Shown here piece after piece: positions 32,912-41,666 of a stretch of 64,000 bases of DNA. This DNA is from Candidatus Marinarcus aquaticus. GTDB lineage: Bacteria > Campylobacterota > Campylobacteria > Campylobacterales > Arcobacteraceae. The translations under genes were made by a program, and so were the position numbers. The notes under the pieces are model-generated. The model saw only the letters and a program-made list of their open reading frames with translations, had not been told where the DNA came from and ran no database searches. Each line of letters starts with the position of its first letter. The stretch's first letter is position 1. The DNA is taken from NCBI RefSeq assembly GCF_004116335.1, contig NZ_PDKN01000001.1:434001-498000 (forward strand). The letters run 5' to 3'.

Positions 32912-35272
32912 TTATAGTTGTTCAAAGTCAACCGTGACTTCATCCATTTGACTCTCTTTGAGATTCATTTTTGCATACTCCATGTGTAACCCTTTGCTTA
33001 CGAAGAATTTAATAATATCTTTATCCAACTCTTGATCTTTTGCCATAAATGAAAGGATTCTCAAACTCTGATTGAGCGAGTTAGCATCTTTGTATGGTCG
33101 GTCATGTGCGGTCAAAGCTTCAAAGATATCGGCAACCGCTAAGATTCTTGCCTCAAAAGTGATTTCATCACCTTTAAGGTTAAATGGATATCCTCCACCA
33201 CAAATTTTTTCATGGTGACCACCTGCAATCATTGGCACACGTTTAAGCTTTTTAGGAAATGGCAGTGATTCAAGCATCTTTATAGAGATAAGTGCGTGGT
33301 TGTTAATGACATGTCGCTCTTCGTTGGTGAGTGTCCCTTTTCGAATGGAGAGGTTATAGACTTCATTTTCACTTAACAGTGGTCGATCTTCACCATTAAT
33401 CGTAACAGTGCGTTGTGCAATTTGTTCAATACGTGCCAAATCCTCATCTTTCATAAACTCTCCACCCACGTTTGATTGTTTGATAAAGGCAAACTCTTCA
33501 TCAAGTGTTTGAAGGGTTTTTTGGTATGATTTTTCATCGATGTTGCCTTTAAGCAGTTCAATGTGCTGTTGGGTTTTAAGCAGTTCAAAACGGGTTTGGA
33601 TTTCAGAGATTCTGTCATGAATGGTTTGCAGTTTTCGTGCTTTATCAACCACATATTCAGGTGTAGTGATTTTTCCAATATCGTGCATCCACGCCGCAAT
33701 TTTAATCTCTTTGATTTCATCTTCGTTGAAAAATTTATCTTTATAAACTCCATCATCTTCATTAATTGCATTGACAATCATTTCAGATATTTGTGCCACA
33801 CGTCCAATATGACCCCCTGTGTAAGGAGATTTCTCATCAATAGCTGCAGCAATAGATTTCATAAAGGAGTTCAATAACCCTTCTAACCCATCAATAAGCT
33901 GTCGGTTTGAAATCGAGATGGCTGCTTGTGAGGCCATGGATTGAATAAGCTTTTCATCATCTCGAGTGTAAGTGATGGTTTCACCTTTTGCATCTTTTTT
34001 ATTAAGCAGTTGTAAAACACCAATAACATCGCCTTCGTGACCAATCATGGGAACAACCAGCATTGACTTAGTACGATACCCTGTGCTTTTATCAAAGTTT
34101 TTGGTTCCTTCAAAGTTAAAACCCACTTCATTGTACACATCATGGATATTAATCAGTTTATTCTCCAAAGCACACAGAGCGGCTACCATCTGTTTATTGG
34201 GCTTATCATCAATATAAAGTGGCAACGCTGGCCATGTGATTTCGTCTTGTGTTCCACCCATTTTGATGTTCAAGGAATCGGTTTGTACCACAGTAAATTG
34301 AAGGTGATTATCCTCTTCATCCATTAAATACAATGTTCCTGCATCCGAATCGGTGAAGTTTTTAGCTGCAATTAAAATTTTTTCCATAAGAACATCAAAG
34401 TTCTTTTCACTTGTAAGAGAGTGTCCAATCTCAATGAGTTCTTTAATATCTTTGGGTTTGACGCCACACTCATTGATGATGGGCTCTTGATTGGTTAAAT
34501 CAATGATGTCCCCATCTTTTAAAATCATGCCATCATTTAAAAGCAGTTCTAAATCATTGATTTCATTGGTGATGGTGTCATAAAAAGAGGGTTTGAGATG
34601 ATTCACATAAATGCGTACATCTTCTCTTTTTAATAAACTCAATTGTTCTTTTAAAAGTGCAGGAGTGAGGTGTTTGCTTGCAAGGGCAAGTTGTTTAAAT
34701 GAAGATGGAAATGAAACATCAAAAATGGCAGATTTGATGATATTGTTACTATTAATCTCTTCGATCAAGGGGTCACACAAGTACGTATCCGAACTAAAAA
34801 GTGTCGCGACACCATTTTTTGTAATCACATAACCACAACTTGATTCGGTGTGGTTATTCTCTATGGCTTTTAGTGAGCAGTTCTCAAAAGTAATCGTTTC
34901 ACCCAATTCAATGGGTTTAAAAACAATGGCATTGTGTTGTTTGTTAATAAGTTCAATTTTGGTAAAATCAGGCCATATATCATTGTTTAAAATGTATTGA
35001 TGCAGATCATCAAGGGTTTTTTGTCGACCATAAATATAAAGAGGTGTTTGTCGATGAGTAAAAAAAGTATCTATAAAAAATGGTATATCAATAAGATGGT
35101 CTAAATGGGAGTGCGAAAGAAATATGTGATTGATATATTTAGCATCATCGCCAAGGCCTGCAAGAATATTACCTGCATCAATTAAGATGTGTTTGTCTAT
35201 CTGTAGACAGGTGGAATTAAAATTGACCCCTTTGCTTCCAAAGGCCCCCAATATTTTAATGGTATTGCTCAT
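32912..35272 (-). CDS. Metallo-beta-lactamase/GAF/HD-GYP multi-domain phosphodiesterase
   Basis: A 786-aa soluble signalling protein with three modules. The N-terminal metallo-beta-lactamase fold (about 1-265) has a binuclear metal site (H54, H56, D58, H59, H141, D162, H225) and resembles class II cyclic-nucleotide phosphodiesterases. A GAF sensor domain follows at about 275-455. The C-terminal HD-GYP domain (about 465-750) has HDIGK at 530-534 and HHEKxxGGGYP, the signature of cyclic-di-GMP phosphodiesterases. ATG 35272 follows AAGGAG. Ligand and substrate are unproven. Confidence 0.85.
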   Translation of the reverse strand: MSNTIKILGAFGSKGVNFNSTCLQIDKHILIDAGNILAGLGDDAKYINHIFLSHSHLDHLIDIPFFIDTFFTHRQTPLYIYGRQKTLDDLHQYILNNDIWPDFTKIELINKQHNAIVFKPIELGETITFENCSLKAIENNHTESSCGYVITKNGVATLFSSDTYLCDPLIEEINSNNIIKSAIFDVSFPSSFKQLALASKHLTPALLKEQLSLLKREDVRIYVNHLKPSFYDTITNEINDLELLLNDGMILKDGDIIDLTNQEPIINECGVKPKDIKELIEIGHSLTSEKNFDVLMEKILIAAKNFTDSDAGTLYLMDEEDNHLQFTVVQTDSLNIKMGGTQDEITWPALPLYIDDKPNKQMVAALCALENKLINIHDVYNEVGFNFEGTKNFDKSTGYRTKSMLVVPMIGHEGDVIGVLQLLNKKDAKGETITYTRDDEKLIQSMASQAAISISNRQLIDGLEGLLNSFMKSIAAAIDEKSPYTGGHIGRVAQISEMIVNAINEDDGVYKDKFFNEDEIKEIKIAAWMHDIGKITTPEYVVDKARKLQTIHDRISEIQTRFELLKTQQHIELLKGNIDEKSYQKTLQTLDEEFAFIKQSNVGGEFMKDEDLARIEQIAQRTVTINGEDRPLLSENEVYNLSIRKGTLTNEERHVINNHALISIKMLESLPFPKKLKRVPMIAGGHHEKICGGGYPFNLKGDEITFEARILAVADIFEALTAHDRPYKDANSLNQSLRILSFMAKDQELDKDIIKFFVSKGLHMEYAKMNLKESQMDEVTVDFEQL

Positions 35273-35365
35273 TTTAGCTGCTCCTTGCATACATAGTTCT
35301 ATTCTAGCAAAAAAAATATTAATTTATTAAACGCATTATTCAAGATTCTTTAAGCAAAAATTTAT

Positions 35366-35371
35366 TATAAT
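35366..35371 (+). promoter_or_regulatory. -10 box ahead of structured leader or small RNA
   Basis: TATAAT in a very AT-rich context with no clear -35, as is usual for Campylobacterota promoters. Transcription would begin at about 35378, in front of the structured segment that precedes rpmJ. Confidence 0.5.
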
Positions 35372-35572
35372 CCAACTCCATTTTTCAACCATTGAAGAAT
35401 TTTTTATTAAATACTTGTGTGTTTTATAAAGAGTTGGTAAGGAGCAAAAAAGTGAGGGTACTTGAAGCAGATGCTCAGGTAGTACGCTTGTTTTGTTCTG
35501 ACCTTTGGTTTGCTTACAGCTTACATTAAATGTCGGTGCGAAGCATAAAAAAGTGATACACTTCACTTTTTT
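35372..35572 (+). ncRNA. Candidate structured RNA or attenuator leader upstream of rpmJ
   Basis: This gap of over 300 bases contains no credible gene but several complementary segments: CCAACTC (35372-35378) with GAGTTGG (35431-35437), and GTACT (35458-35462) with AGTAC (35481-35485), the latter enclosing AGCA/TGCT. It ends in a terminator hairpin (35547-35572). The 10-mer AAAAAAGTGA occurs twice (35446-35455 and 35547-35556), and either copy can pair with TCACTTTTTT at 35563-35572, so two exclusive folds are possible. It could be a small RNA or an attenuator of the ribosomal operon. No match to 4.5S RNA is seen; 6S RNA is not excluded. Confidence 0.45.
35547..35572 (+). terminator. Intrinsic terminator hairpin before rpmJ
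   Basis: A perfect 10-bp stem (AAAAAAGTGA / TCACTTTTTT) with loop TACACT, the 3' arm being itself the start of a seven-T run. It lies 52 bases before the rpmJ start, inside the likely leader. Confidence 0.7.
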
Positions 35573-35623
35573 TAGGGCTTCTTGCCTGTTGGAAAATGAC
35601 AATAAACACAAAGGAAAGCAACA

Positions 35624-35737
35624 ATGAAAGTTAGAGCTTCGGTTAAAAAGATGTGTGACAAGTGTAAAATTGTCAAAAGAAGAGGAATCGTAAGAGTGAT
35701 CTGCGAAACTAAAAAACACAAACAAAGACAAGGATAA
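35624..35737 (+). CDS. rpmJ: 50S ribosomal protein L36
   Basis: A 37-aa ribosomal protein ([20 protein letters not shown]..., ending KKHKQRQG) with part of the zinc-ribbon pattern CDKC. It starts at ATG 35624 after AAAGGAAAG. It leads rpmJ-rpsM-rpsK-rpsD-rpoA-rplQ, detached here from secY/infA because the gene upstream is divergent. Confidence 0.96.
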
Positions 35738-35743
35738 AAAGAC

Positions 35744-36112
35744 ATGGCAAGAATCGCAGGTGTTGATTTACCAAACAAAAAAAGAATGGAGTACGCATTA
35801 ACGTACATTTACGGAATTGGTTTACACAATTCAAGATTAATCTTAGATGCTGTTGGAATTGATTACAACAAAAGAGCTCACGAGTTAACAGAAGATGAAG
35901 CAGCGAACATTCGTAAAGAGATCCAAGAAAACTACATGGTAGAAGGGGATTTAAGAAAGAAAGTTGCTATGGATATTAAAGCTTTAATGGATTTAGGTTC
36001 ATACAGAGGTTTAAGACACAGAAAAGGTTTACCTTGTAGAGGGCAAAAGACTAAAACTAATGCTCGAACTAGAAAAGGTAAAAAGAAAACTGTTGGTGCA
36101 GCAGCGAAGTAA
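35744..36112 (+). CDS. rpsM: 30S ribosomal protein S13
   Basis: A 122-aa small-subunit head protein contacting the P-site tRNA and the 50S bridge. Recognised by [53 protein letters not shown] and the basic tail. It starts 6 bases after rpmJ. Confidence 0.98.
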
Positions 36113-36121
36113 GGATAACTG

Positions 36122-36514
36122 ATGGCAAAAAGAAAAGTAACTAGAAAAAAAGTAGTAAAAAAGAATATTGCTGACGGTATCGTACACATTGCAGCAACGT
36201 TTAACAACACAATGGTAACTGTTACTGATGCAGCTGGTAATGCGATCGCATGGTCAAGTGCTGGTAACTTAGGGTTCAAAGGGAGCAAAAAATCTACTCC
36301 ATTCGCAGCACAACAAGCTGTTGAAGATGCTATGAATAAAGCAATGGAACATGGTATTAAAAACGTAGGTATCAAAGTTCAAGGGCCAGGTTCTGGACGA
36401 GACACTGCAGTTAAATCAATTGGTGCAATTGATGGTATCACTGTTAAATGGTTCAAGGACGTTACACCATTACCACATAATGGTTGTAGACCTCCTAAGA
36501 GAAGAAGAGTGTAA
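36122..36514 (+). CDS. rpsK: 30S ribosomal protein S11
   Basis: A 130-aa small-subunit platform protein. Conserved segments are [42 protein letters not shown] and the end [18 protein letters not shown]. Internal gene of the alpha-type operon. Confidence 0.98.
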
Positions 36515-36524
36515 GGAGTAGGTA

Positions 36525-37151
36525 ATGGCAAGATATAGAGGACCAGTAGAAAAAATCGAAAGAAGATTGGATGCAGACCTTGGATTAAAAGGTGAGAGAA
36601 GACTTAACGGAAAATCTGCATTAGAAAAAAGACCTTTCCCTCCAGGACAACACGGACAAAGAAGAACGAAAATCTCTGAGTACGGTTTACAATTAAGAGA
36701 GAAACAAAAAGCAAAATACCTTTACGGTGTTTCTGAAAAACAATTCAGAAAATACTTTAAAGAAGCAGCACGAAGAGAAGGTAACACAGGGGCAAACCTT
36801 ATTACTTTAATCGAGCAAAGATTAGACAACGTTGTTTATAGAATGGGATTTGCTACAACTCGAGCAAATGCACGACAATTTACAACTCACGGACACGTTT
36901 TAGTAGATGGTAAAAAAGTTGATATTCCTTCTTTCATCGTTAAACCAGGTCAAAAAGTTGAAATCAAAGAAAAATCTAAATCTAATCCACAAGTTGCAAG
37001 AGCACTTGAATTAACTAACCAAACGGGTATGGTTGAATGGGTTGATGTAGATAAAGATAAAGTATTTGGTATCTTTACAAGAATTCCAACAAGAGAAGAA
37101 GTTGTTATTCCAGTTGAAGAAAGATTAATCGTAGAGTTATATTCTAAATAA
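36525..37151 (+). CDS. rpsD: 30S ribosomal protein S4
   Basis: A 208-aa primary 16S rRNA-binding protein. It opens [23 protein letters not shown] and contains an S4 domain ([33 protein letters not shown]). In E. coli, S4 represses its own operon through the leader; whether it does so here through the leader before rpmJ is open. Confidence 0.98.
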
Positions 37152-37169: not shown

Positions 37170-38168
37170 ATGAAGAAATTCGCAGATACACCGTTTTTAC
37201 CAACAGAAGTTGAAATCGAGGCCATTAGTGACACGCAAGCAAAAGTAACAGCTTATCCATTTGAAAGTGGGTTTGCTATTACTTTAGCGCACCCTTTAAG
37301 AAGACTTCTTCTTTCAAGTTCAGTTGGTTACGCACCAATTGCGGTGAAAATTGAGGGTGCAAGTCATGAATTTGACTCGTTACGAGGTATGCTTGAAGAT
37401 ATTGCTATTTTTATTATTAATCTTAAGAACATTAAATTTAAAATTACTAGTGATGAAGAGCAAGTCGTTGCTGAATACTCTTTTGACGGACCAAAAGAGA
37501 TTAAAGGTGCAGATTTAGCTAACGCTGATGTTGAGATTGTTAGCCCAGATGTACACTTAGCAACTATCAACAGTGACTGTAATCTTACATTCTCAGTGAT
37601 CATTCAAAAAGGTATTGGTTATATGCCTTCAGAAGATATCAGAGAGATTGTAAGCAACGATTACATTCCAATTGATGCATTCTTTACACCAGTTAAAAAA
37701 GTGGTTTACAACATTGAAAAAATGTTGGTTGAAGACAACCCTAACTATGAAAAAGCGGTATTTGATATTCAAACAAATGGACAAATTTCTCCAATCGATG
37801 CATTCAAAGAGTCTGTATCAGTTATGTATTCTCAAATGTCGGTTTTCAATAAAGTATTTGATCTATCAGAAGTAACGGTAAGTGAGAGTGGTGAAGAGCC
37901 AACTGAGTTAAAAGATTTGGTTGTTAAGATTGAAGACTTAAACTTAAGTGCTCGAAGCTTCAACTCTTTAGACAGATCAGGGTTAAAATTCTTAGGTGAG
38001 TTAGTACTTATGAGTGAAGTGGAAGTTAAGAACATCAAAAATCTTGGTAAAAAATCATTCGATGAAATTGCTGAGAAACTTGAGTCACTTGGTTTCCCAA
38101 TCGAAGAGACACTTCCAGAAAATATCGCATCAGCTTTACGAAGAAAGCTTGAGCAGTTAAAAGCATAA
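37170..38168 (+). CDS. rpoA: DNA-directed RNA polymerase alpha subunit
   Basis: A 332-aa RNA polymerase assembly subunit. N-terminal dimerisation domain (FAITLAHPLRRLLLSSSVGYAPIAVKIEG), then a flexible linker and a C-terminal domain with helix-hairpin-helix segments (LNLSARSFNSLDRSGLKFLGEL, IKNLGKKSFDEIAEKLESLGF) that contacts UP elements and activators. It follows rpsD in the conserved order. Confidence 0.98.
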   Translation: MKKFADTPFLPTEVEIEAISDTQAKVTAYPFESGFAITLAHPLRRLLLSSSVGYAPIAVKIEGASHEFDSLRGMLEDIAIFIINLKNIKFKITSDEEQVVAEYSFDGPKEIKGADLANADVEIVSPDVHLATINSDCNLTFSVIIQKGIGYMPSEDIREIVSNDYIPIDAFFTPVKKVVYNIEKMLVEDNPNYEKAVFDIQTNGQISPIDAFKESVSVMYSQMSVFNKVFDLSEVTVSESGEEPTELKDLVVKIEDLNLSARSFNSLDRSGLKFLGELVLMSEVEVKNIKNLGKKSFDEIAEKLESLGFPIEETLPENIASALRRKLEQLKA

Positions 38169-38180
38169 TAAAGGTTTAAT

Positions 38181-38531
38181 ATGAGACATAAGCACGGATA
38201 TAGAAAGTTAAACAGAACTTCTTCTCATAGAAAAGCATTGTTAAAAAACTTAGCAATCGCTATCATTGAGAGAGAAAAAATTGAAACAACAGTTCCAAAA
38301 GCAAAAGAGTTAAAAAGATACATTGAGAGATTAGTGACTACTGCTAGAAATGCAGATTTCAACACTCACAGAGCAGTGTTTGCATTACTACAAGATAAAG
38401 AAGCAACTAAAAAATTGATCAATGAAATTGCACCAAAGTATGTTGACAGAAACGGTGGATACACATCAATTATCAAAACTCGAATCAGACGAGGGGATGC
38501 TACACCAATGGCATTCATTTCATTCGTATAA
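38181..38531 (+). CDS. rplQ: 50S ribosomal protein L17
   Basis: A 116-aa large-subunit protein ([24 protein letters not shown]..., [25 protein letters not shown]). Last gene of the ribosomal operon, followed by a strong terminator. Confidence 0.98.
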
Positions 38532-40096: not shown

Positions 40097-41543
<1,447 letters not shown>

Positions 41544-41545
<2 letters not shown>

Positions 41546-41666
41546 GAAGCTTTAGCTTTTTAAATATTCTACGTTCACCTTCCTTTTTAGAGACAGTCAC
41601 TTACTTCAGTAAGCTTCTGCCTCTAAAAACTTGTCTGCCTTGACTCTTTAAATTCTAAAGCTTCTT
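41544..41666. repeat. Structured inverted-repeat element after guaB
   Basis: Outer 12-bp arms AAGAAGCTTTAG (41544-41555) and CTAAAGCTTCTT (41655-41666) enclose a second nested palindrome: TTTTTAGAG / CTCTAAAAA around CAG / CTG around CTTACT-TC-AGTAAG. The right edge runs into GTGTTTTAATTTTTT, so it may be an elaborate guaB terminator. No flanking target duplication is seen. The rest of the gap to 41889 is AT-rich, with no gene. Confidence 0.5.

Follow-up and report, generated by a model that had tools for sequence, protein, structure and literature searches.

In E. coli, ribosomal protein S4 is the established repressor of the alpha operon, where a pseudoknot at the start of rpsM traps the ribosome (PMC10931766); the pseudoknot of this leader (RF00140, Alpha_RBS) embraces the rpsM ribosome binding site. 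In other phyla S4 is associated with several unrelated leaders (PMC7247131, PMC10931766), and those of Clostridia and Fusobacteriales (Eckert and Weinberg 2020, PMC7247131) and of rpsD in Bacilli, for which S4 autoregulation has been predicted or shown, are located before rpsM..rpsD or rpsD in these other lineages. The S15 leaders (Thermus, Bacillus; mycobacteria, PMC10931766) resemble the element described here in having a three-helix junction or pseudoknot upstream of the initiation site, which controls ribosome access, but differ from it in gene, ligand and sequence. None of the 20 new leaders reported in PMC7247131 is from Campylobacterota, and no ribosomal-protein leader for this phylum was found in the literature examined or in Rfam. 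The screen of Stav et al. (2019, PMC6429828) covered intergenic motifs of Arcobacter sp. L and left several unnamed; no rpmJ or alpha-operon leader is mentioned by name in its main text, and since an Arcobacter genome was covered the leader may be among those unnamed motifs. Nor is an alpha-operon leader named in the transcriptome study PMC3847290.

The window analysed here is the whole 64,000-nucleotide stretch of Candidatus Marinarcus aquaticus DNA, and it was compared with 104 Arcobacteraceae genomes and some 80 genomes from elsewhere in the order, the loci including Arcobacter caeni, Halarcobacter and Aliarcobacter. The comparison shows that the segment before rpmJ, the predicted 5' leader of rpmJ-rpsM-rpsK-rpsD-rpoA-rplQ, is the version, specific to this lineage, of a structured RNA found across the order. 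The features of the operon and its promoter are as follows.

35366 to 35371, + strand: -10 box TATAAT of the leader promoter, read from the sequence
35378 to 35623, + strand: leader RNA, the rpmJ 5' UTR, with its start deduced from the -10 box; conserved order-wide
35612 to 35615, + strand: Shine-Dalgarno AGGA of rpmJ, read from the sequence
35624 to 35737, + strand: rpmJ (L36)
35744 to 36112, + strand: rpsM (S13)
36122 to 36514, + strand: rpsK (S11)
36525 to 37151, + strand: rpsD (S4, the candidate ligand)
37170 to 38168, + strand: rpoA (RNA polymerase alpha)
38181 to 38531, + strand: rplQ (L17)

The -10 box pointed out in the original prediction is present. TANAAT stands at the corresponding position in 87 of 101 Arcobacteraceae leaders, and 46 of 53 leaders from other families have it upstream. 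The leader precedes rpmJ in all Arcobacteraceae leaders read and in most other families, and rpsD lies downstream of it in 78 of the 78 loci checked. A search with positions 35340-35623 matched 28 of 60 related genomes in two separate pieces: one comprises the promoter and the first 70 bases, the other the 50 to 80 bases immediately preceding rpmJ. The region between them, which holds the repeats treated below, is almost absent in some relatives and exceeds 150 bases in others. With the 5' piece as query 84 of the 104 family genomes were matched, and reading upstream of rpmJ indicated that most of the unmatched ones have the leader as well.

The lowest-energy fold of the whole leader is exactly a three-way junction of the helices P1, P2 and P3, with the following parts.

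35379 to 35389, + strand: 5' strand of P1, CATTTTTCAAC (lowest-energy fold, covariation, partner permutation)
35588 to 35598, + strand: 3' strand of P1, GTTGGAAAATG (lowest-energy fold, covariation, partner permutation)
35394 to 35399, + strand: conserved junction motif GAAGAA (alignment)
35398 to 35435, + strand: P2 hairpin with its conserved 3' flank, TAAAGAGTT (lowest-energy fold, covariation)
35436 to 35586, + strand: P3 in a long, lineage-specific version, with its first GG and last CC both invariant

None of 200 shuffled sequences folded as well (z of -5.2 for 35371-35576 and -5.7 for the whole leader, 35372-35626). The core that the alignments show is this P1/P2/P3 junction, in which a conserved GAAGA precedes P2 and P3 has an invariant GG..CC at its base; GAAGA is near-invariant in alignment A2 and present with variation in Arcobacteraceae. 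In 35 Arcobacteraceae leaders, counted with the interior of P3 trimmed, 86.7% of cells were paired and 17 of 29 pairs had changed on both sides; none of 500 column shuffles reached this level, and sliding the partners lowered pairing to 48-58%. P1 is wholly rewritten yet still paired in distant members of the family, for instance as CTGTTTTCTAAT with ATTAGAAAACAG.

The same architecture was found upstream of rpmJ in 53 leaders outside Arcobacteraceae, drawn from 80 genomes of the order. Thirty-three of these gave 91% of cells paired, with both-side changes in 19 of 24 pairs (12 of 12 in P2), again with 0 of 500 shuffles as high and with pairing falling to 35-55% upon sliding. The 3' half of the cross-family alignment A1 was poor, and pair counts were not taken from it. 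Among 86 representatives, the P1 strands form a duplex of -10.3 kcal/mol with their own partners vs -6.7 kcal/mol with permuted ones (0/5000 as good). The compensatory changes in relatives on which the original prediction had staked its reading are strong and affect both sides of the helices (0/500 shuffles; 0/5000 permutations).

A covariance model, R1, built from the 33 non-Arcobacteraceae leaders alone, had matches at E<=0.001 in 153 of the 298 phylum genomes, nearly all of which gave a single match; among the genomes listed, all matches were confined to Campylobacterales, and the sole listed genome with two matches is G346, of family f10. The match stood before rpmJ in 30 of 30 inspected loci, at 114-256 bases measured from the match start. 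When R1 was run on 43 unseen Arcobacteraceae loci, it gave 38 matches at E<=1, covering most of these loci, the best with 35.7 bits (E 5e-7). The window leader scored 17.8 bits, with an E value of 0.02 when the window was searched and of 0.76 for the genome, so that it is not the best R1 match in either, standing second in the window to a chance match at 41499-41581. As R1 is weak on the window, its leader is tied to the family through DNA similarity to matching relatives. It could also be the case that an AT-rich segment such as this folds by chance and without function, all the more since a 10-nt repeat alone is not rare in it, but this is contradicted by the covariation, by the controls (0/500 and 0/5000) and by the order-wide covariance matches, and its probability is practically negligible. 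We consider the element almost certainly a conserved cis-leader. As a conserved RNA structure found consistently upstream of ribosomal-protein genes it is filed here as a leader of the ribosomal-protein kind, outside the S4 leader families of E. coli and Firmicutes.

A further predicted pairing connects the loop of P2 with the translation start of rpmJ.

35415 to 35420, + strand: 5' strand of the pseudoknot, TTGTGT, in the P2 loop (permutation test, complement listing)
35606 to 35611, + strand: 3' strand of the pseudoknot, ACACAA, touching AGGA (permutation test, complement listing)

The P2 loop has its complement, in most families, immediately before the Shine-Dalgarno sequence of rpmJ, with changed letters: CCACU:AGUGG in f7, f9, f10, f20 and f22, GCACC:GGUGC in f6, GGCAC:GUGCC in f18 and GGGAA:UUCCC in f5. 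Covariation outside Arcobacteraceae shows this pseudoknot in most families, and in the 86 representatives own partners gave -5.5 kcal/mol vs -3.6 kcal/mol for permuted ones, with 0/5000 as good. Within Arcobacteraceae alone 164 of 5000 permutations were as good; about half of the leaders of this family, including that of the window, keep the pairing, and in nearly half it is weak or lost. The weaker signal there is due to the many members, mainly of one large genus, that have lost it. The E. coli leader has the operon and the candidate ligand in common with this one, and in both a pseudoknot lies at the first ribosome binding site; here the operon bears rpsD and the pseudoknot abuts the rpmJ Shine-Dalgarno sequence. 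On the other hand, the Campylobacterales leader has a three-way junction, stands before rpmJ, and has a pseudoknot that ends just upstream of the Shine-Dalgarno sequence. RF00140 gave no match at E<=1 in 16 order-level leaders, for which nothing was found in Rfam, nor at E<=10 in the window segment, where no 6S RNA or other family of Rfam 15 matched at E<=10.

Another pairing, proposed between CCAACTC (35372-35378) and GAGTTGG (35431-35437), is complementary in the window but is not conserved, GAGTTGG being constant and the other side variable in relatives. With one side invariant and the other not, both this helix and a pseudoknot idea based on it were rejected. CCAACTC separates the -10 box from the expected start point, and for that reason is probably mostly untranscribed.

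The original prediction was centred on a repeat, located within the long P3.

35446 to 35455, + strand: copy 1 of AAAAAAGTGA, 5' strand of the long P3
35547 to 35556, + strand: copy 2 of AAAAAAGTGA, forming an alternative local hairpin with the arm
35563 to 35572, + strand: shared 3' arm TCACTTTTTT, read from the sequence

The repeat is exact, both copies can pair with TCACTTTTTT, and 107 bases were counted from copy 1 to the arm, in agreement with the approximately 107 that use of the distal copy had been said to enclose. An exact 10-nt direct repeat arose in 159 of 2000 dinucleotide shuffles of 35366-35623, and one with its reverse complement also present in 3 of 2000. Copy 1 with the arm makes up the distal part of P3 in the lowest-energy fold, while copy 2 with the arm makes a weaker local hairpin. 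The GTACT/AGTAC pair of the original prediction is also in the lowest-energy fold, but within an insert that is absent from the other sampled genome of the genus; P3 has 151 nt in the window vs 71 nt in that genome.

Mutually exclusive helices sharing one arm were found only in the long-P3 subset. P3 is at least 95 nt long in 25 of 99 Arcobacteraceae leaders and in 0 of 52 from other families, and species with a short P3 have no such duplication. The duplication recurs in most long-P3 Arcobacteraceae, with altered letters that still match the arm, for example AAAAAAGCAAA twice against TTTGCTTTTTT and AAAAACAAA twice against TTTTGTTTTT; the co-varying letters are GTGA in the window, GCAAA in several genera and CAAA in others. 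Since the letters of the repeat change together, the two copies seen in the window represent a recurring, covarying feature of the Arcobacteraceae lineage. In long-P3 leaders the pairing of copy 1 with its own 3' strand amounts to -20.5 kcal/mol vs -15.1 for swapped and -11.0 for shuffled strands. A U-rich local hairpin is present in 23 of 26 long-P3 leaders. The competition between two partners recurs in relatives, but a place for it and for a terminator at the core of the device is not supported; the conserved parts are the three-way junction and, chiefly outside Arcobacteraceae, the pseudoknot, neither of which the original prediction described.

These recurrent partners, together with the match of copy 1 to the arm beyond shuffles (p<0.05) in 14 of the 23 leaders with the U-rich hairpin, would suit a transcription attenuator with a ligand-dependent choice between two states: an intrinsic terminator when the arm pairs with copy 2, and an antiterminator when it pairs with copy 1. 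Such an arrangement is, however, missing from three quarters of Arcobacteraceae leaders and from all other families, and in the window the full-length fold strongly favours the copy 1 helix. The terminator to which the arm had been assigned is a weak one: the copy 2 hairpin (-8.7 kcal/mol) has only two G-C pairs in its stem, its U-run sits inside the stem rather than after a stable GC-rich one, and it was not called on the + strand by a consensus terminator scan. Attenuation is therefore improbable as the explanation of the leader, and terminator competition cannot be the general mechanism, because short-P3 species lack the duplication. The long P3 with two copies of AAAAAAGTGA appears instead as a recurrent lineage-specific addition, which might provide a kinetic or weak attenuation step.

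An independent small RNA had been offered as another reading; it would start at the rpmJ promoter and stop at the U-run near 35572. The segment does have its own -10 box, a strong fold of 35371-35576 and a terminal U-run, but the U-run hairpin is absent from most relatives, and the 3' strands of P1 and of the pseudoknot lie beyond the U-run, beside the Shine-Dalgarno sequence. Given that the element always stands directly before rpmJ and that its 3' half abuts the ribosome binding site, we regard this reading as very unlikely.

Some other candidates within the insert were discarded: a genomic repeat (the P3 insert is single-copy in the genome), a genome-wide repeat of the terminator loop motif GAAGCAGTTC (7 copies vs 4 for the control), and a small ORF with GTG at 35454 after AAGGAG (within the insert absent from relatives). 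A stretch similar to the P3 insert (74%, E 1e-5) occurs in another genus, in L026 (G002) at about 1501-1588, antisense and just downstream of rpsG; it may reflect chance or a shared element.

Taken as a whole, we consider it rather probable that the leader is an undescribed ribosomal-protein leader acting on rpmJ translation, with S4 as the likeliest ligand, both ligand and mechanism being inferred. Translational control as such is likely. The ligand would be a ribosomal protein encoded in the operon, with S4 the best candidate; it would bind the junction and stabilise P1 and the pseudoknot, and these would then block or trap the ribosome at rpmJ, limiting its entry, with the later cistrons following the control of rpmJ by coupling. 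In long-P3 leaders the hairpin of copy 2 and the arm could form first on the nascent RNA, before the long P3 helix.

The original suggestion of an autoregulatory leader for S4 or another ribosomal protein stands as regards a real cis leader, supported by covariation, and S4 is a candidate by the position of rpsD. It is the natural one because rpsD is downstream in all the loci checked, and it is favoured because S4 represses the alpha operon in E. coli and because structurally unrelated S4 leaders precede this operon in other phyla; we give S4 a slightly better than even chance. It is possible, although it seems unlikely, that the translational regulator answers to a ligand other than S4, whether or not this is another product of the operon (S13, S11, L36 or L17): the operon opens with rpmJ and rpsM, ligand predictions of this kind vary in confidence (PMC7247131), and no clear likeness of the leader to the 16S rRNA site of S4 was found. 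The role of S4 in E. coli and its unrelated leaders in other phyla (PMC7247131, PMC10931766) argue against such a ligand. As for the rRNA site, the comparison was made with the 16S rRNA of relatives, since the draft source genome had no 16S match, and no convincing mimicry was found in the leader. GAAGA(A)UAAU is common to both RNAs, a likeness that is probably due to chance, because UAAU lies within the covarying P2. The GUAA mimic of Firmicutes and Fusobacteriales is not a consensus in the Campylobacterales leader (AUAA or GUAA in Arcobacteraceae, not retained elsewhere), and no conserved GUAA in an rRNA-site setting was found, the 3' side of P2 reading AUAAAG/GUAAAG in Arcobacteraceae only and varying elsewhere.

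A more ambitious reading, which we hold to be doubtful, is that of a hitherto undescribed, order-wide family of S4-binding leaders with its own scaffold, made up of the three-way junction and the pseudoknot at the rpmJ Shine-Dalgarno sequence, whose P3 has repeatedly been rebuilt in one lineage as a two-partner switch. If so, a duplicated 5' strand competing for one 3' strand would add a co-transcriptional decision to a translational regulator. The range of the leader, which covers most of the sampled families of an order to which Campylobacter and Arcobacter belong, makes it a ready target for studying how the dosage of 30S proteins and of RNA polymerase alpha is set in Campylobacterales. It also offers a further scaffold that may bind S4, with a dense record of covariation, and an example of a helix rebuilt using duplicated strands.

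The leader seems to be absent from families f13 (L140, L143, L150, L152, L153, L161) and f14 (L172, L181, L188, L212, L216), which lend themselves to comparison in a functional test; in f14 only about 60 bases separate infA from the rpmJ that follows it. In family f4 (L157, L169, L171, L173, L174, L175) the R1 match lies roughly 250-470 bases before rpmJ, and an extra GC-rich, structured-looking stretch separates the two. In other families (L230, L242, L144) the leader is flanked by infA on one side and rpmJ on the other, all on the same strand. The leader of the window has no infA beside it, which indicates that the operon was split in that lineage and the leader kept with rpmJ. The divergent neighbour there (32912-35290, - strand) encodes a 792-aa fusion of metallo-beta-lactamase-like (PDEase_II-like), GAF and HD/HD_5 (HD-GYP-type) domains, a set that looks uncommon beside a ribosomal operon, and several related loci (L002, L005, L016) have neighbours of similar appearance.
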